A stretch of DNA of 64,000 nt from Polynucleobacter meluiroseus (GTDB lineage Bacteria > Pseudomonadota > Gammaproteobacteria > Burkholderiales > Burkholderiaceae): contig NZ_OANS01000001.1 of assembly GCF_900205755.1 (NCBI RefSeq), positions 310,001 to 374,000 on the forward strand, written 5' to 3'. Under the pieces are notes generated by a model. The model searched no databases, was not told where the DNA came from, and saw only the letters and a list, made by a program, of their open reading frames with translations. The position numbers were made by a program, and so were the translations under genes. This document shows positions 38,008 through 45,832 of this stretch, piece by piece. Within the stretch, counting starts at the first letter, position 1. Every line of letters starts with the position of its first letter.

Positions 38008-40548
38008 ATGCCAACTACTAAGAAAAAACCTGCCAAGCCCGCTGCTAAATCAACGGCCAAACCTGCGGCAAAAAAAGCTACAAAGCCTGTAGCCAAAGCT
38101 AAGGCTCCCGTGAAGTCAGTAAAGCCTGTAGCGAAGAAGCCTAGCAAGGCGCCAGTGAAGAAGCCGGTGGCTAAGGCGGCCGTCAAGCCAGTAGTCAAAG
38201 CAAAGGCCCCAGTCAAGCCCGCCGCGAAGAAGCCAGTAGCTAAAGCAGCTGCCAAGCCAGCTGTTAAAGCGAAGACCCCAGTGAAGGCGGTAATTAAGGC
38301 GCCTGTTAAAGCGGCAGCCAAGCCTGTTCCAAAGGCACCCGTTAAGGTAGCCGCTAAAGCCACCACCAAATCCACCGTTGCCCCGAAAGCATCGGCGAAG
38401 CCAGCACCTAAGGTTGCGGCTAAGGTGGTAGTTAAGGTGGCAGCAAAGCCAGTAAGCAAGCCAGCCATCAAGGCAGCTTCTGCTGAGGAGGCTACAAAGC
38501 CTGAGGCAGTTGAATTAGAGACCAATGAAGTTGGTGAAGATAAAAAAGTTCGCAAAACCAAGGTAAAGGCCGATGCGCCTGCTGAGGGAGTTGAGCCAGT
38601 GTTGACTGATCGTCAAAAGGCTCGTGAACGCAAAGCAAAAGAGAAGGCACTGTTGAAAGAATTTGAAGCACAAAAGCTAGGCTCTGAAGAGCAGCAAGAG
38701 TTGCGCCGTACGCGCTTGAAGACGTTGATCAAGATGGGTAAGTCTGCAGGTTATTTAACGCATGGCGAAATTAATGACGTCATGTCAGATGAGCTGTCTG
38801 ATGCAGAATCATTGGAAACCTTAATCGGTTTATTGAGCGACATCAACATTACCGTCTATGAGCAGGCGCCAGATGCTGAAACATTGCTTCTGAATGAAAA
38901 TGCGTCTGCTGGAACTACTGAAGAAGAAGCTGAAGAGGAGGCTGAAGCTGCTCTTTCTACGGTTGATTCTGAGTTTGGTCGTACAACGGATCCCGTGCGT
39001 ATGTATATGCGCGAAATGGGTACTGTCGATTTGCTTACTCGCGAAGGCGAGATTGTCATTGCCAAGAAGATTGAAGCTGGCCTCAAAGATATGGTGATGG
39101 CTCTAGCCGCATGTCCAGTCACGATCAGTGAAATTCTGACCAACGTAGACAAAATCACGACTGGTGAGATGGAAATCGATCAATTTGTAGATGGTTTAGT
39201 TGATCCCAATGCAGAAGACATTAAGCTGGGACCAGAAGAGCCAGCAGTTGATCCTGATGCAGAAGAATCAGAAGAAGAAGGCGACGATGAGGGTGGCGGT
39301 GGTGGTGCGGCAACTGCCAATGCCAAGCAACTCGAAGAGTTGAAGCAGATTTCTTTAGAGAAGTTCGCCATCATTCGCACTCAAGCTGACAAGATGCGTC
39401 GTGCTTTTGATAAAGAGGGTTACAACTGCCCGGCCTATATCAAGGCACAAGAAGCGATTCGTAACGAATTACTTGGATTCCGCCTCACAGCGAAGAGTGT
39501 TGAGAAGCTTTGTGACACCATGCGCTCACAAGTAGACCAAGTTTGGAAGCTCGAGCGCGGTATTGTGAGTCTCTTAGTTGATAAGGTTGGCGTGAATCGT
39601 GGTGAAGTAATCAAAGACTTCCCTAAGATGGCCATGAATCTTGAGTGGACTGCTAAGTTACTCAAAGAGAACAAGCCATACATCGCCCTGTTGCAACGTA
39701 ACGTACCTGCTGTGCAAGAGTTGCAGCAAAAGTTAATCGACATTCAAACTCGTGTAGTTCTGCCTATCCCTGAATTAAAAGAAGTAAACAAGCAGATGGC
39801 AGCTGGCGAGAAGCGTGCCCGTGAAGCTAAACGAGAAATGACCGTAGCGAACTTACGTTTGGTGATTTCGATTGCTAAGAAGTACACCAACCGTGGCTTG
39901 CAGTTCTTGGACCTGATTCAAGAAGGCAATATTGGCTTGATGAAAGCGGTTGATAAGTTTGAATATCGCCGCGGTTATAAATTCTCCACTTATGCAACTT
40001 GGTGGATTCGCCAGGCGATTACCCGTTCGATTGCTGACCAAGCCCGTACCATTCGTATTCCTGTTCACATGATTGAGACGATCAATAAGATGAACCGGAT
40101 CAGCCGCCAGATTTTGCAAGAAACTGGACATGAACCAGACGCCGCTACTTTGGCTCTGAAGATGGAGATTCCAGAAGACAAGATTCGCAAGATCATGAAG
40201 ATCGCTAAAGAGCCTATCTCAATGGAAACACCAATTGGTGACGATGAAGATTCACATTTAGGTGACTTTATTGAGGATGGCAATACTTTAGCTCCAGCTG
40301 AAGCCGCTTTGCATGAGTCGATGCGTGATGTCGTAAAAGACGTCTTGGATTCATTAACACCTAGAGAGGCAAAAGTATTGCGTATGCGCTTTGGTGTCGA
40401 GATGAGTACTGATCACACCCTCGAGGAAGTAGGCAAGCAGTTTGACGTGACACGTGAGCGTATCCGTCAGATTGAAGCTAAAGCCTTGAGAAAAATGCGT
40501 CACCCAAGCCGTAGCGACAAACTCAAGACCTTCCTCGAAGAGGATTGA
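38008..40548 (+). CDS. rpoD: RNA polymerase sigma-70 factor RpoD with Lys/Ala/Pro-rich N-terminal tail
   Basis: This 846-residue protein is the housekeeping sigma factor. Residues 1 to about 165 form a low-complexity, histone-H1-like tail of AKKPVAK / KAPVK repeats with hardly any acidic residues. Region 1.1 follows ([21 protein letters not shown]), then region 1.2 ([21 protein letters not shown]), an acidic non-conserved insert (about 405-435, with a Gly run), regions 2.1-2.4 ([32 protein letters not shown]), region 3 and region 4.2 ([20 protein letters not shown]). The lysine tail is longer than in gamma-proteobacterial RpoD (613 residues). tRNA-Ile follows after 13 bp. Confidence 0.97.
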
Positions 40549-40561
40549 GCCAAAGACTAAC

Positions 40562-40638
40562 GGGCCCATAGCTCAGTTGGTTAGAGCAGAGGACTCATAA
40601 TCCTTTGGTCCCAGGTTCAAGTCCTGGTGGGCCCACCA
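40562..40638 (+). tRNA. tRNA-Ile (CAU), intact copy
   Basis: A 77-nt cloverleaf: acceptor GGGCCCA/TGGGCCC, D-arm GCTCAGTTGGTTAGAGC, anticodon loop CTCATAA (CAT at 40596-40598), T-arm CCAGG/CCTGG with GTTCAAGTC, discriminator A and encoded CCA. A CAU anticodon can mean Met or lysidine-modified Ile. The anticodon arm and variable loop (GACTCATAATC, TTGGTC) resemble the E. coli minor tRNA-Ile2, and its split twin carries an intron of the tRNA-Ile type, so Ile2 is favoured. It begins 13 bp after the rpoD stop and may be cotranscribed. Confidence 0.9.
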
Positions 40639-40707: not shown

Positions 40708-40872
40708 TATCCCCGCTAGACCCCAATAGATATATGGTTCTAGCTTGGAGCAATCAACTATTTGTTGCCCGTGGTTTGTAAGTGCTCACGGACTGCTTAC
40801 GGCCAGTTGCAGTCATTCGTGGGATGCACCAAATAAAGGAATCAGTAGCAAACCTAGAGGTGGTTTTTTATT

Positions 40873-40963
40873 GCTCAATCTAGTGCTATACCTACTCCAA
40901 ACCTTCAAATACTTATGCTAGGATTCGATGGTGGATAGTCCACAACCTATAGGAGAAATAAAA
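40873..40963 (+). promoter_or_regulatory. Conserved upstream block of peptide cassette 1
   Basis: This block is nearly repeated at 41193-41283. It holds CTACTCCAAACCTTCAAATA, then TATGCTAGGATT (a -10-like element), the palindrome GTGGATAGTCCAC at 40931-40943, and AGGAGA before the GTG start. It probably carries the promoter and operator of the small gene. Confidence 0.5.
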
Positions 40964-41116
40964 GTGCCAGTACAGACGATTGAATTAGAAGAAGTGCAAA
41001 TGATTGAAGTGAGTGATGATTTATTAGAGGCAAGTTGTAGACTAGTGGGGCTGTTTACCTCTACTATTTGTCAAGATCAATGTGGTGGTGCCTTCACAAT
41101 ACCTTACTGCAGATGA
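40964..41116 (+). CDS. Small peptide 1 with bacteriocin/RiPP-like leader
   Basis: A 50-residue peptide that starts at GTG 40964, with AGGAGA 8 nt upstream. Residues 1-21 (MPVQTIELEEVQMIEVSDDLL) match the leader of the second peptide 320 bp away, and acidic leaders ending in VSDxxLE resemble those of ribosomally made, modified peptides. The C-terminal half has four cysteines (SCRLVG, TICQDQCGG, PYCR) and would be the variable core. No modification or export genes are seen nearby. An in-frame ATG at 40928 would give 62 residues, but it lies in the conserved non-coding block and is less likely. Function is unknown. Confidence 0.6.
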   Translation: MPVQTIELEEVQMIEVSDDLLEASCRLVGLFTSTICQDQCGGAFTIPYCR

Positions 41117-41163
41117 AGTTAATACTGCTCTGTGTTATAGAGCATTGATATACCCTGTATCGC

Positions 41164-41190
41164 AAGCCACTCTACGGAGTGGTTTTTTAT
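41164..41190 (+). terminator. Terminator of peptide cassette 1
   Basis: CCACTC/GAGTGG (41167-41172 and 41177-41182) closes a TACG loop and is followed by TTTTTT. An almost identical hairpin lies after cassette 2. Confidence 0.85.
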
Positions 41191-41192
41191 TG

Positions 41193-41283
41193 TCCAATCG
41201 AGTGCAATTCCTACTCCAAACCTTCAAATACCTATGCTAGGATTTAACTGTGGATAGTCCACATAACTTAATGGATAACAAGC
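41193..41283 (+). promoter_or_regulatory. Conserved upstream block of peptide cassette 2
   Basis: Near-repeat of 40873-40963, with the same CTACTCCAAACCTTCAAATA string, TATGCTAGGATT and the palindrome GTGGATAGTCCAC at 41250-41262. The start-proximal ribosome-binding site is weaker (ATGGATAAC) than in cassette 1. Confidence 0.5.
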
Positions 41284-41522: not shown

Positions 41523-41707
41523 TGGTCCTTAATGTCCGCTTTGGGTCGTTAGCTCCCTGATTCTAGAGCGGGCTGAGTGTGTTCAAAATCGGCCTACATC
41601 AGACGTCCGTAGGATATTCCAACTAGTGGAATCTGTAGGTATATTCCCCTTATTTCCTTCCGTTATTATTCAAACACTACTTCGAGAAATTGTTAAGGCG
41701 CAACAAG

Positions 41708-42790
41708 ATGAAGCATCTAAAAAAATTACTACTTGCTTTACTTATCTCAATTTCTTCAATGTGCTTAATTGCCTGTGTTGGTAGCAATACTAGTAGCAAT
41801 GGTGTTAGTGGGGGTAGCGTTTCACAAGCCTGTCAAAATCCAATTAACCCCTCAATGACTCCCATTAGGTTAAAAACAGAATCATTTGACAGAGATATTT
41901 GGATTGTTGGTTGTGCCGACCAAATTCCGGAAAACGGTCTTCCGATTCTGTTCGGGTTTCATGGGGGAGGAGGAACCCCTGTCAGCCGTGAGGGTAGAGG
42001 TTTTTTGAACTATACAAGTCTTGACAATTTGGGCGCGATTGTCATAGCGCCTGTGGGCAATCGTAGTAATAATGGGCACAGTTGGATCAATGCTTTTCCT
42101 TGGATGAAAACCAATCCAGAAAATGACCTTTTACTGCCTCAAGCAATCATACAATTATTAAAAAATACTCCAGGTCTTCCTCGGATCGATTATCAAAGTG
42201 TCCATGCAACTGGAAAATCTGACGGATCAGGTATGACCATGTACTGGGCTTGTAATATGGCTAGTAGTGGAGTTGACTTAAAGAGTATTGTGATGGTCTC
42301 AGGCGCTTATTTTGGGTTAAATAGCGCAACAAATGTTGGGCTTAACGAGTCTTCAATTTGCGTACCTAAAGCCCCAATTCCCATGTTGATGATGCACGGC
42401 ACTGCAGATCAAGTAATGTCATACAACGGGCAACATTTTCTCAATTCAAAGGCAATTGAATTTGCAAATGATTACTGGATTACAAAAGATCCGACTGTCT
42501 CTCCGGGAAGAAGTAATACTTACACAGTAAAGATAGAGGCTTACAGAGAGTATTTAGCTAAAGAGGTCAATAAATGCTCTGTTTCAACACTTTCCAGCCT
42601 CGGAACTTATTCCAATGTAGAAACCTGGTCTGGATGTTTAGCTGACTTCACGTCCATCACCATCGCTGGAGGTAATCACGTTTGGACAGGTCACATTAAG
42701 AGTGGTCCAGATTCTGGTCAAACCCCAAACATGGACTTTAATGCCACCGAAGAGCTTGCGAAATTTTTAAAGTTTCCTTTGTACAAATAA
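41708..42790 (+). CDS. Lipoprotein esterase of the PHB-depolymerase/LpqC alpha-beta hydrolase type
   Basis: This 360-residue protein has a lipoprotein signal (MKHLKKLLLALLISISSMCL, then the lipobox LIAC), a Ser/Asn/Gly-rich spacer and an alpha/beta-hydrolase domain. The oxyanion region is GFHGGGGTP; the nucleophile motif GKSDGSG fits GxSxG near residue 182; the Asp is in MMHGTADQV and the His in GGNHVWTGH. This layout matches the secreted esterase/PHB-depolymerase/LpqC group. I chose the ATG at 41708 over a TTG at 41690. It is alone within the tRNA island; substrate unknown. Confidence 0.75.
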   Translation: MKHLKKLLLALLISISSMCLIACVGSNTSSNGVSGGSVSQACQNPINPSMTPIRLKTESFDRDIWIVGCADQIPENGLPILFGFHGGGGTPVSREGRGFLNYTSLDNLGAIVIAPVGNRSNNGHSWINAFPWMKTNPENDLLLPQAIIQLLKNTPGLPRIDYQSVHATGKSDGSGMTMYWACNMASSGVDLKSIVMVSGAYFGLNSATNVGLNESSICVPKAPIPMLMMHGTADQVMSYNGQHFLNSKAIEFANDYWITKDPTVSPGRSNTYTVKIEAYREYLAKEVNKCSVSTLSSLGTYSNVETWSGCLADFTSITIAGGNHVWTGHIKSGPDSGQTPNMDFNATEELAKFLKFPLYK

Positions 42791-42921
42791 AAGCAAAATA
42801 GTCCACATTCATTGCTCACTTCAACAGTTACTCTTCAGAGCGGTTCTTTGATTGCCTTCAATGGCTGCTATGGGTCGGAAGCGGTCTATCGCTATCGAAC
42901 TTTTTAGACCCAAACATTACT

Positions 42922-42954
42922 TTGGAGCAACGAAGTGTTAGACGGTTGCTCCAA
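42922..42954. repeat. Long inverted repeat TTGGAGCAAC/GTTGCTCCAA
   Basis: A perfect 10-bp stem with a 13-nt loop. There is no T-run after it, so it is more likely an attachment-site or protein-binding structure than a terminator. Confidence 0.5.
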
Positions 42955-43010
42955 AATTCCTGTGGTTTCGAAAACCAAAGAGTGACTCCACACTTCCTTT
43001 AAATCCATGA

Positions 43011-43271
43011 ATTTGCTTACACATTTGCTTACACACCGACGCTGACCACCCGCAGAGCCCCTGTTTATAATGGTCTATCTTGGGTGTCTGCTCTCATAAG
43101 AAAGAAGCCCTAGGGGTCTTGTAACAAAGACCTCAATAGATTCAAGAGCTTAGTGGTCGATTAGGTAGTCAAAATTGCTTACACACCGGAGCAAAAACCG
43201 AGGTGTGTAGTAAATGCGGTTTTAGTGTGGTTTTGAAGTGGTAAACACCAGTAGTAAGGTGTGTAGTGAAT
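43011..43271. repeat. Cluster of GTGTGTAG/CTTACACA repeats
   Basis: ATTTGCTTACAC occurs twice in tandem at 43011-43034, the second running on into ACC. ATTGCTTACACACC recurs at 43174-43188. Direct-orientation forms GGTGTGTAGTAAAT (43202-43215) and GGTGTGTAGTGAAT (43258-43271) follow, the last 12 bp before the tRNA. The motif also occurs left of the island at 40694. Confidence 0.6.
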
Positions 43272-43282
43272 GTAACGATTTA

Positions 43283-43571
43283 GGGCCCATAGCTCAGTTG
43301 GTTAGAGCAGAGGACTCATAGCGAAAGTTGTGCCTTATGCGTGGAAACTGCATAAGGGATGGTGTCAAATTCGGAGAAAGCTAAAGGTAGCCAAAAGCTG
43401 CACAAGCTAACGCCGAGCCAAGCTTAGTAGAAATACTTTGAAGGTGTAGAGACTAGACGGCACCCATCTAAGTCGAGCAATCGATATGATGAAGGCATAG
43501 TCCAGGGAGTAGTGAAAGCTACACAAACCGGAATCCTTTGGTCCCAGGTTCAAGTCCTGGTGGGCCCACCA
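43283..43571 (+). tRNA. tRNA-Ile (CAU) gene interrupted by a group I intron
   Basis: The exons are 43283-43319 and 43532-43571. Joined they equal the intact tRNA at 40562-40638 at every one of 77 positions. The break falls directly after the anticodon CAU (43317-43319). With the intron removed, the acceptor, D, anticodon and T arms and the encoded CCA are complete, so the gene should be functional if splicing works. The insertion point (after the anticodon U of tRNA-Ile CAU) is the one used by the Azoarcus pre-tRNA-Ile intron. Confidence 0.93.
43320..43531 (+). ncRNA. Group I self-splicing intron (Azoarcus-like, subgroup IC3)
   Basis: A 212-nt intron with no reading frame. P1: exon CAU plus AGC (43317-43322) pairs with the guide GUUGUG (43327-43332), with the expected U-G wobble at the splice site and a GAAA loop. 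P2: 43333-43340 with 43350-43357, with GGAAAC in its loop. P3: GGTGTC near 43361 with GGCACC near 43459. P7: GACTA (43451-43455) with TAGTC (43498-43502). P9: GTAGT/GCTAC (43509-43522) with a GAAA loop. The last base is the conserved omega-G (43531). Stretches such as GGGATGGTGTCAAATTCGG, GTAGAGACTAGACGGCACCC and ACACAAACCGG are the same as, or very close to, my recollection of the Azoarcus ribozyme. Confidence 0.93.
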
Positions 43572-43578
43572 GAAATGA

Positions 43579-43608
43579 AAATACCAACCTTAGGGTTGGT
43601 ATTTTTTT
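43579..43608 (+). terminator. Rho-independent terminator after split tRNA-Ile
   Basis: AATACCAACC/GGTTGGTATT (43580-43589, 43594-43603) with a TTAG loop and T-run. Similar TACCAACC hairpins end katG and the cupin gene. Confidence 0.9.
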
Positions 43609-43834: not shown

Positions 43835-45097
43835 TTGACAGCAGTTCACACTGCCATATATTGGTTTAGAAGCGATCTTCGCTTACGCGACAATCCAACA
43901 TTTATAAAGGCCTGTAAGGAAGCTGAATTTCTGTTGCCTGTTTATATTCATTCAAACCACTTGGAGGAAGAAGCTGCTTGGGGTTTTCCAAGAGTGGGTG
44001 GGCAGCGCAAAGCTTTTTTACAGGAGTCTTTAGAAGATTTACGAACGCAACTCAGGGCGATGGGGTCAGACTTAGTTGAGTTAAGCGGTGACATTCTTGA
44101 AGTATTTGAGGAATTACGTACTAAGCTAGATGCCAATCAGATTTACTGTGAACAAATTAAGGCTCCAGAAGAATTGGAGCAAGTTGCAATACTGAGTCAC
44201 GCGGGTTTTGAGCTTAAGTCTATTTGGCAGTCATCCATGTTGGATCCTCAGGACCTGCCCTTTAAAGCAGAAGACATGCCCGATGTCTTCACGCAATTTC
44301 GCCAGCAAGTTGAAAAACATAAAATAAGATTTGCGAAGCCTGTTGATGCCCCTGTTAGCATTCCTCCCCTACCAAGCAGTCATAGAGTTCAGGATCAAGC
44401 AACTACTTTTGATGCATCCTCTAGCAAGAAATCATTTCTGGGTGGAGAAACCAGTGCGCTTGCTCATATTAATCAGTACTTTGAACGACGTCTTCCAGAT
44501 ACCTATAAGCAAACCCGCAATGGCTTAGTTGGTATGGATTATTCAAGTAAGTTCTCGCTATGGCTTGCAGGGGGCTGTTGCTCAGCTAGATTGATCGCAA
44601 AACAACTGGCAGAGTATGAGCTTCTCTATGGCGCAAATGATGGCACGTATTGGCTTTGGTTTGAGCTGCTTTGGCGAGACTATTTCCGCTTTTTACACTT
44701 TAAGTTTGGCAACAAGCTATATCGCTCAAGAGGTTTGGGTGCCGCACCTAGCAACCAGTTTAATGAAGCAAAGTTTCAGCAATGGGCTTCTGGCAATACT
44801 GGTGAGTCATTAATAGATGCTGGTATGCGTGAGCTATCGACAACCGGATATCTATCTAATCGAATGCGCCAAGTAGTTGCGAGTTACTGGATTTACAACA
44901 TGAAGGGCGACTGGCGGGCTGGCGCCGCTTGGTTTGAGTCGCAACTGATTGACTATGACGTGTATAGCAACCAAGGAAACTGGTTATATATAGCTGGTAA
45001 GGGCACGGATCCTAGAGGGGGAAGGCCCTTTAATGTGGCCAAGCAAACCCAAGATCATGACCCTGATGCCATATACCGAAACATGTGGCTGAAATAA
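43835..45097 (+). CDS. Cryptochrome/photolyase, DASH type
   Basis: This 420-residue flavoprotein has the N-terminal antenna-binding alpha/beta domain (IYWFRSDLRLRDNPTF) and the C-terminal FAD-binding helical domain (YWLWFELLWRDYFRFL; GYLSNRMRQVVASYWIYNMKGDWRAGAAWFE; QGNWLYIAGKGTDPRGGRPFNVAKQ). The DMPDVFTQFRQQVE segment and the C-terminal signature fit cryptochrome-DASH, which repairs cyclobutane dimers in single-stranded DNA and may sense blue light. Length is at the short end for the group. The start is TTG 43835; no good ATG lies near. The ChrR-like cupin gene follows 82 bp later. Confidence 0.87.
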   Translation: MTAVHTAIYWFRSDLRLRDNPTFIKACKEAEFLLPVYIHSNHLEEEAAWGFPRVGGQRKAFLQESLEDLRTQLRAMGSDLVELSGDILEVFEELRTKLDANQIYCEQIKAPEELEQVAILSHAGFELKSIWQSSMLDPQDLPFKAEDMPDVFTQFRQQVEKHKIRFAKPVDAPVSIPPLPSSHRVQDQATTFDASSSKKSFLGGETSALAHINQYFERRLPDTYKQTRNGLVGMDYSSKFSLWLAGGCCSARLIAKQLAEYELLYGANDGTYWLWFELLWRDYFRFLHFKFGNKLYRSRGLGAAPSNQFNEAKFQQWASGNTGESLIDAGMRELSTTGYLSNRMRQVVASYWIYNMKGDWRAGAAWFESQLIDYDVYSNQGNWLYIAGKGTDPRGGRPFNVAKQTQDHDPDAIYRNMWLK

Positions 45098-45178
45098 GCG
45101 CAACGATATTGAGAAAAGTACGCTAAGCAGATTTGCTTGTTATGCTTATCGTTATCACTGAAAATCAAAAATAAACAA

Positions 45179-45832
45179 ATGAATATCAATGCGGATTACA
45201 GCCAGAAAGTCGTTATCAATCATCACGATTTGCCGTGGATTGAAAGTCCAGAGTCTGGGGTGGAAAGGCGGATGCTTGAGCGCTCAGGCGATGAGGTAGC
45301 AAAAGCCACTTCTTTAGTGCGCTATCAACCCGGATCTAGATTTCCTATTCATACCCATGAATTTGGGGAAGAGATATTCGTCTTAGAGGGAATCTTGAGT
45401 GATGAAACTGGCAGTTATCCTGCTGGCACTTACATCATGAATCCCCCAGGTTCCGCCCATGCTCCTTTTAGTGAGGCTGGGTGCACTCTCTTCGTGAAGT
45501 TGCGGCATCTTGGTCCAGAGCAAGTGGAGCGAGAAGTCGTTGATACGAGAACAGCGCCGTGGCTGCAAGGGATGGTGCCAGGTTTGCATGTTATGCCTCT
45601 CATGCAGCAGGGCAGTGGATCGACTTTAGTTCGATGGGCACCGCAAACGTATTTCAATCCACACAAACATTTCGGCGGAGAAGAGATCTTTGTGGTGGAT
45701 GGAGTGTTCGAAGATGAGCACGGGCGCTACCCCGCTGGGTCATGGATTAGAAGCCCACACATGAGTCTGCATCAACCCTTTAGTAAAGAAGGCTGCACCA
45801 TCTTTGTTAAAACGGGACATCTACTAAGTTAG
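45179..45832 (+). CDS. Double-cupin protein, ChrR-like
   Basis: This 217-residue protein is two tandem cupin domains of the ChrR type. Metal ligands are visible in each: HTHEFGEEIFVLEG (about residue 60) and HKHFGGEEIFVVDG (about residue 165). ChrR proteins of photosynthetic bacteria are anti-sigma factors that release sigma-E under singlet oxygen, but they carry an N-terminal zinc/sigma-binding domain that is absent here; the protein has just the cupin parts. No ECF sigma gene is near. Being beside a photolyase fits a light/oxidative-stress setting. I chose the ATG at 45179. Confidence 0.75.
   Translation: MNINADYSQKVVINHHDLPWIESPESGVERRMLERSGDEVAKATSLVRYQPGSRFPIHTHEFGEEIFVLEGILSDETGSYPAGTYIMNPPGSAHAPFSEAGCTLFVKLRHLGPEQVEREVVDTRTAPWLQGMVPGLHVMPLMQQGSGSTLVRWAPQTYFNPHKHFGGEEIFVVDGVFEDEHGRYPAGSWIRSPHMSLHQPFSKEGCTIFVKTGHLLS

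Follow-up and report, generated by a model that had tools for sequence, protein, structure and literature searches.

A group I intron in a tRNA-Ile(CAU) gene of Polynucleobacter meluiroseus and its association with integrative-element ends in related genomes

Organization of the locus

The window, the whole stretch of 64,000 nucleotides analysed here (contig NZ_OANS01000001.1 of P. meluiroseus, positions 310,001 to 374,000), carries two tRNA-Ile(CAU) genes downstream of rpoD. One is uninterrupted and starts 13 bases after the rpoD stop codon. The other lies 2.7 kb further downstream and is split by a 212-nt insert. The features around the two genes are as follows.

38008..40548, + strand: rpoD (ORF); the native tRNA-Ile(CAU) gene comes next in the genus
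40562..40638, + strand: native tRNA-Ile(CAU) without an intron; the putative attB is its anticodon stem-loop GGACTCATAATCC, as suggested by attL- and attR-type junctions in relatives
41690..42790, + strand: putative cargo ORF lying between the tRNA genes; hydrolase-like, as judged by reading only
42921..43092, + strand: right-end module R; matched part 42921-42985; ends ...TCTGCT before the core
43030..43265: TACACACC sites, four in all (+ strand at 43030 and 43180, - strand at 43202 and 43258), which flank the core and are putative arm sites of an integrase
43093..43099, + strand: recombination core CTCATAA, which here joins R to U; attP-like junction
43098..43282, + strand: left-end module U, immediately before the intron-bearing tRNA gene
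43283..43319, + strand: 5' exon of tRNA-Ile(CAU); its last three bases are the anticodon CAT
43320..43531, + strand: class-1 group I intron, 212 nt, last base G; helices P1 43317-43319/43330-43332, P3 43361-43366/43459-43464, P7 43451-43455/43498-43502
43532..43571, + strand: 3' exon, encodes CCA
43580..43608, + strand: terminator-like hairpin and T-run, by reading; a terminator scan scored the hairpin on the - strand only
43835..45097, + strand: photolyase gene, start of the probable chromosomal right flank
45137-45832: cupin-like ORF (reading only), part of the probable chromosomal right flank

A first-pass annotation had described the interrupted gene as a tRNA-Ile(CAU) gene split directly after the anticodon by a small group I intron. 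ARAGORN with intron search places the gene at 43283-43571 with an intron (38,212), in agreement with that description. The search with the Rfam model RF00028 that the annotation had proposed returned a match above the gathering threshold at 43307-43524 (52.6 bits against a gathering score of 50, E 1.7e-10); no other group I match reaches the gathering score in the window or E <= 0.001 in the window genome. The details of the fold are also as claimed: in the window RNA the exon CAU pairs with the intron GUG to form P1, with a U-G pair at the 5' splice site, the intron ends in G, and the GAAA loops are present. The expectation that tRNA finders miss the gene is correct for default ARAGORN, which reports 40562-40638 only, and incorrect for ARAGORN with intron search. 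Thus, the interpretation of the intron stands, while the uninterrupted gene, the attachment-site-like junction CTCATAA (43093-43099) located 190 nt upstream of the split gene, and the position of this gene at a mobile-element end had been missed. Within the window's ORF list, no ORF of at least 80 aa was found that overlaps the intron.

The exons of the split gene are identical to the uninterrupted gene at 40562-40638. The gene almost certainly encodes tRNA-Ile2; the isotype, Ile and not Met, is presumed from the known features of tRNA-Ile2. TilS is present in 8/8 genomes checked. The insertion point, directly after the anticodon of tRNA-Ile(CAU), is that of the Azoarcus-type intron, which we take to be similar in sequence as well.

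The ORF at 41690..42790 matched no Pfam family and gave no significant PHROG match (E 0.27). Module R aligns with R of locus L042 over 65 bp at 88% identity (blastn). At the core, R is joined directly to U, and orphan tRNA halves are absent from the window locus. The 64-kb window has five TACACACC copies; four fall around the core and are candidate integrase arm sites. The interval 40860-41263, between the two tRNA genes, contains a pair of direct repeats of 85 bp (88% alike) together with shorter repeats that resemble terminators.

Fold and conservation of the intron

The window RNA folds better than 200/200 shuffled sequences (z -4.1). The genus loci used here provide 50 distinct full copies of the split gene with 49 distinct introns between them; the introns are 203-255 nt long and invariably end in CAAACCGG. 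The exons of these copies are nearly invariant, and such exons around widely varying introns fit selection on the spliced tRNA.

An alignment of 37 introns, comprising 36 distinct rows, was used to assess covariation. On the 36 rows 96.3% of the cells assigned to helices are paired, as compared with 88.3% in shuffled alignments and 25-41% in slid controls, a comparison in which the structure has an advantage because it was drawn on the window sequence itself. Changes on both sides of a pair occupy 126 cells in 18 pairs, against 35 in 12 for shuffles and 4-6 in 2-4 for slid partners. A further measure, the number of additional pair types, was equalled by 29/500 shuffles. P3, P4 and P7 are invariant and 100% paired on the 36 distinct introns, while P2, P5a, P6, P8 and P9 vary on both strands of the helix. 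The weak spots are P6a (71.4% paired) and the tip of P8 (82.5%), where the alignment is gapped. The peripheral helices P2, P6, P8 and P9 occur as few alleles in many combinations, as if shuffled by recombination between copies.

Element ends and junctions in the genus

The genus search covered 186 genomes, many of which have one to four full intron copies among the matches listed. In the relatives, the core CTCATAA stands directly before module U, and U directly before the intron-bearing tRNA. Many of them have an orphan 5' half of tRNA-Ile(CAU) preceding the core, often right behind rpoD (e.g. L032). Kilobases downstream, module R ends in CTCAT and is followed by an orphan tRNA 3' half (attR type). 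The orphan 5' half and the orphan 3' half are the two products expected of recombination between R-CTCATAA-U (attP) and GGACTCATAATCC (attB). These attL- and attR-type junctions at CTCATAA place a short core in the anticodon loop of a host tRNA that is not rebuilt, and the element carries a complete cognate tRNA. As judged from this arrangement, the intron-bearing tRNA is the left end of integrative elements in the relatives. R-CTCAT/3'-half sites are present also in genomes with an intact gene, e.g. G014, so some elements seem to rebuild the tRNA.

The possibility that the intron-bearing tRNA serves as a classical 3'-end attachment site of islands was rejected, as the orphan halves break at the anticodon and not at the tRNA 3' end.

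In L044 (10262-11014) two successive units, each of a 5' half plus U, precede one intron-bearing tRNA. A second element seems to have broken a replacement tRNA there, one with or without an intron, the two being indistinguishable. By eye, cargo genes that resemble each other but belong to different genomes run into a 3' fragment of the intron, after which come the tRNA 3' exon and a terminator-like hairpin, as in cassettes with a tail derived from the intron. Three sets of such ends were noticed: L039 13298, L050 10586, L055 8924 and L067 14492; L041 16922, L051 8377, L062 11292 and L067 6909; and L056 10275 and L059 2563.

Distribution of intron-bearing and uninterrupted copies

Complete copies were counted after deduplication in genus loci chosen by the analyst from the matches listed; a class-1 copy truncated at a contig end and another that fell in no class were excluded. 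Of the 70 class-1 copies, 42 are preceded within 330 nt by an orphan 5' half and 24 by the core only (mostly behind an R end); two are native after rpoD and have no junction (G031, G033), and two have too little upstream sequence. The eight class-2 copies, in which the intron occupies a different position (see below), comprise four with an orphan half, three with the core only and one with neither, so that 7/8 are core-linked. The 56 uninterrupted copies are distributed differently: 33 are native and begin 10-19 nt past the last aligned rpoD codon, 15 have neither feature, six have an orphan half, and two have the core and a degenerate half. With the two short-upstream copies excluded, 73/76 assessable intron copies are core-linked vs 8/56 uninterrupted copies (Fisher p 8e-24, calculated on copies that are not independent). 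CTCATAA is expected by chance in about 2% of such stretches.

Sole-copy status was determined for 84 genomes with completeness >=99% and <=11 contigs, using assignment by best E-value (uninterrupted <=1e-24, class 1 <=1e-70). Uninterrupted genes only are present in 45, class-1 genes only in 30 and class-2 genes only in three (G001, G041, G060). Both kinds occur in five (the window genome G000, G073, G082, G083 and G086), and one (G052) has a divergent uninterrupted replacement. The intron-split gene is the sole intact tRNA-Ile(CAU) found in 33/84 genomes, or 32 if a degenerate copy in G070 counts. All 33 were re-searched with every candidate scored (20 + 11 + G070 and G183), and no full-length uninterrupted tRNA-Ile(CAU) was found in them except in G070, where the copy is 94% identical, two bases short and still called a tRNA by ARAGORN. 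G183 has a fragment only (14-77). At least one exact 33-77 site (attR type) is carried by 15/20 genomes of one re-searched set. The candidates for overlooked copies that were retrieved proved to be other tRNAs: an 82% match in G110 is tRNA-Lys(CTT), and 80% matches in G001, G013, G031, G126 and G127 are tRNA-Arg(TCT). The sole-copy pattern, which presupposes complete assemblies, argues for splicing in vivo.

Putative integrase, cargo and signs of lateral spread

A 450-aa protein encoded 1.1 kb downstream of the intron-bearing tRNA of G067 matches PHROG integrases (E 1.3e-31). It matches NCBIfam XerA weakly and no Pfam family, and a comparison with solved structures gave chance-level hits only. 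Relatives of this protein (37-100% identical) are encoded within 5 kb downstream of 12 complete copies. No such relative was found within 5 kb in 29/38 core-linked class-1 copies with >=4 kb of downstream sequence. The G067 element spans 32,587 bp from core to attR, and DNA like window positions 45132-45832 is found after its attR as well. Nine chosen proteins of this element and one of L042 were included in a defence-library scan; the G067 cargo includes ZorA-D proteins (Zorya), a cytosine methyltransferase and a methyl-directed nuclease, and that of L042 includes AbiEi and AbiEii proteins. Searches of plasmid and phage records gave partial matches only. The one integrase match of the window genome at E <= 1e-40 is 38% identical and contains a stop. 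The window element is taken as a remnant because the one integrase found in its genome is distant and interrupted.

The similarity of introns is weakly correlated with that of rpoD across 30 loci (Mantel r 0.29, 46/2000 permutations as high). Nine of 435 genome pairs combine rpoD identity <88% with introns >=97% identical, and for G108 and G112 rpoD is 96% identical and the introns 71%. G184 and G094 each contain at least four diverged full copies.

Occurrence outside the genus

Bacterial tRNA introns had been expected to be rare, an expectation that does not hold here, as the intron model matches 194/398 genomes of the window's family. A reading of these matches as a tRNA-Ile intron present throughout the family was discarded, since ARAGORN on 20 of the loci showed introns in tRNA-Leu and tRNA-Thr. 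These loci (L132-L151, other genera) contain 15 tRNA-Leu(UAA), four tRNA-Leu(CAA) and one tRNA-Thr(UGU) gene with introns, and the 19 tRNA-Leu calls have 85-87 nt outside the intron, as expected for tRNA-Leu.

When named genomes were scanned for one exact 27-nt core pattern, 33 stretches were obtained, among them Polynucleobacter, and an order-wide model search of 399 genomes gave eight high-scoring loci outside the genus. Duplicates (L192-L194), L198 (called tRNA-Pro) and the Polynucleobacter-like uncultured beta MAGs L152, L171 and L173 were left out, and 25 chromosomal loci outside the genus were examined. An orphan 5' half is present upstream in 9/25, a fraction that applies to loci chosen by one pattern and is not to be extrapolated, with scores of 25-40 vs a largest shuffle score of 17. 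The nine loci are from Gulbenkiania, Sterolibacterium, Methylophilaceae, a betaproteobacterial MAG (L162), Massilia, Dechloromonas, Duganella, a gammaproteobacterium-labelled MAG and G705. Each orphan half contains CTCATAA and departs from the tRNA sequence within a few bases. No orphan half was found upstream in the other 16/25 loci or in three viral contigs. The sequence of the orphan half is not the same as that of the replacement tRNA in several loci, e.g. Methylophilaceae L159, where a foreign tRNA gene thus seems to have taken over. The Sterolibacterium integrase is about 51% identical, and L182 has a partial integrase match.

Proposed origin of the split gene

The combined observations make it highly probable that the split gene contains a self-removing Azoarcus-type tRNA-Ile(CAU) intron that arrived as the left end of elements which integrate into the anticodon loop and carry a replacement tRNA. 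A tyrosine-type integrase encoded by the element would act on the host tRNA-Ile(CAU) gene behind rpoD and recombine its anticodon loop with the CTCATAA core. As the two sequences share just about 7 bp, integration would split the host gene, leaving an orphan 5' half at attL and an orphan 3' half at attR. The element would supply a complete replacement tRNA, located 155-224 bp from the core and usually intron-bearing, and the intron, which most likely removes itself from the pre-tRNA, would spread by riding on such elements. The intron-bearing gene would often be the sole copy in a genome because mobile DNA has broken the host copy. The window retains what appears to be a remnant only (R, core, U and the intron-bearing tRNA, no integrase) next to an intact host-type tRNA. 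Its history may have been the integration of a reconstituting element at the native gene, then of a second element at the attR of the first, followed by loss of the cargo of the second. Several observations count against this account: the window genome lacks a close integrase, 29/38 core-linked class-1 copies have no integrase relative nearby, the introns of G031 and G033 occupy the native gene, 16/25 loci outside the genus show no orphan half, and G070 retains a degenerate uninterrupted copy.

The intron might instead be an old one, inherited vertically in the native gene, with elements that merely favour the same tRNA gene. Introns at the native position directly behind rpoD in G031 and G033 and the 16/25 loci outside the genus that have no orphan half are compatible with such a history, which is nevertheless very improbable. 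It would have to accommodate the 33 uninterrupted native copies directly behind rpoD, an intron similarity weakly tied to that of rpoD (Mantel r 0.29) and the diverged full copies in G184 and G094; for this genus vertical inheritance is already disfavoured. A narrower question is whether the split gene of the window is a pseudogene, a dead remnant made dispensable by the intact copy 2.7 kb upstream. G000 does contain both copies, and no clear promoter was detected upstream of the split gene (one promoter-like site vs 0.7 expected). Yet its exons are identical to those of the intact copy, and the core helices that are invariant across homologues are paired in the window intron, so that we regard a dead gene as unlikely. 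Arrival on integrative elements remains the preferred explanation for the intron-bearing gene.

The loci bear on how tRNA introns spread without a homing endonuclease: the introns apparently travel at the ends of integrating elements, and these elements replace an essential tRNA gene. Provided that splicing occurs, much of one genus relies on a ribozyme for tRNA-Ile2.

A second intron class and possible protection of the replacement tRNA

The tRNA gene of G001 (L088) reads GGACT / intron / CATAATCC and is thus split just before the anticodon. This class-2 copy sits behind the native 5' half and a U-like module. The class-2 intron matches RF00028 below the gathering score (35.6 bits, E 1.6e-7), and class-2 tRNA-Ile copies are wrongly assigned to tRNA-Leu when ARAGORN is run with intron search.

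Besides riding along, the intron, or divergence of the anticodon stem, could conceal the replacement tRNA from the integrase of the element itself, an idea that we put forward tentatively and consider rather unlikely. A replacement left unmasked about 200 bp from attL would present the core a second time, and recombination of attL with it would remove U, restore the host tRNA and leave the element trapped. In keeping with such a function, the anticodon loop of replacement tRNAs is split by introns of two classes that differ in position, an altered anticodon stem is found instead in the unsplit replacement of G052, and uninterrupted genes account for just 8/81 core-linked copies. In addition, more than 40 listed matches are exact from CTCAT through an unsplit 3' half vs at least seven from CTCAT through the intron, as raw counts unadjusted for the number of available targets. 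Against it, uninterrupted replacements with an intact core exist in G062, G071, G073, G076, G085, G099, G123 and G131, the intron starts with A in 46/50 copies and thereby preserves CTCATA, and R-CTCAT is followed by the intron in L057 and L058, so intron copies can be hit. Hitchhiking accounts equally well for the association. The double unit in L044, where the broken replacement may or may not have had an intron, lends the idea no support. Two stricter versions were dropped: that the intron is obligatory for a replacement tRNA, in view of the eight uninterrupted core-linked copies and the divergent uninterrupted G052 gene, and that intron copies are never targets, in view of the R-CTCAT/intron junctions in L057 and L058.

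The general proposition that mobile elements shield the anticodon loop of a replacement tRNA with a self-splicing intron, splicing of which would still yield an unbroken tRNA, is rather doubtful. If true, the two insertion points and the one stem divergence would be three solutions to one problem, and the position of the introns in the anticodon loop and their persistence without a homing endonuclease would be explained. The loci include natural pairs, replacement tRNAs with and without an intron beside the same integrase family, which makes the shielding idea directly testable.

Relation to known systems

The pre-tRNA-Ile intron of Azoarcus sp. BH72 is small and located in the same tRNA directly after the anticodon, as in the window. 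Polynucleobacter differs from Azoarcus sp. BH72 in having many diverged copies at the left end of integrative elements. A 2014 review assigns bacterial group I introns mostly to tRNA and rRNA genes and names the Azoarcus pre-tRNA-Ile intron (PMC3984707), and group I introns of bacterial tRNAs are described elsewhere as usually located at position 37/38 (PMC4033280).

A close parallel to the element is tRNA-dependent lysogeny, as described for phages of Actinobacteria, with tRNA-Ile2-CAT among the targets (Guerrero-Bustamante and Hatfull 2024, PMC10865867). Shared features are an attB over a host tRNA gene (putative in Polynucleobacter), a short core (about 10 bp in those phages and about 7 bp in the Polynucleobacter elements), the absence of tRNA reconstruction and a cognate tRNA on the element; the tyrosine integrase of the phages has a putative counterpart in the Polynucleobacter elements. 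The text of that paper does not mention the word "intron" outside its references, whereas the betaproteobacterial elements described here have group I introns in most replacement tRNAs, and one of them carries defence cargo.

The tRNA-Thr locus of Caldiarchaeum (Sugahara et al. 2012, PMC3293823) has a tRNA 5' fragment, a recombinase-bearing insertion and an adjoining intron-containing tRNA. It resembles the present loci in that intron gain is tied to a mobile element, and differs in having archaeal introns at one tRNA locus as opposed to ribozyme introns at dozens of loci. Split tRNA genes have been proposed to deny integrating elements their target in archaeal hosts (Randau and Soll 2008, as cited in PMC4033280). 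Shielding of a replacement tRNA would instead serve the element. Among the titles and abstract openings of the papers listed, no description of an intron in a replacement tRNA was found, and a 2017 paper on Polynucleobacter islands may cover the islands; a text search of the literature collection used found no paper joining "Polynucleobacter" and "group I intron".

Phage introns known at the time of the 2014 review were all in protein genes, according to that review (PMC3984707). The IMG/VR contigs L185 (11300-11585), L186, L187, L188, L189 and L191 contain CAT-called tRNA genes (ARAGORN) with the same intron core. Some of these genes adjoin other tRNA genes, and L185 also has a terminase-like ORF, as judged by reading only.
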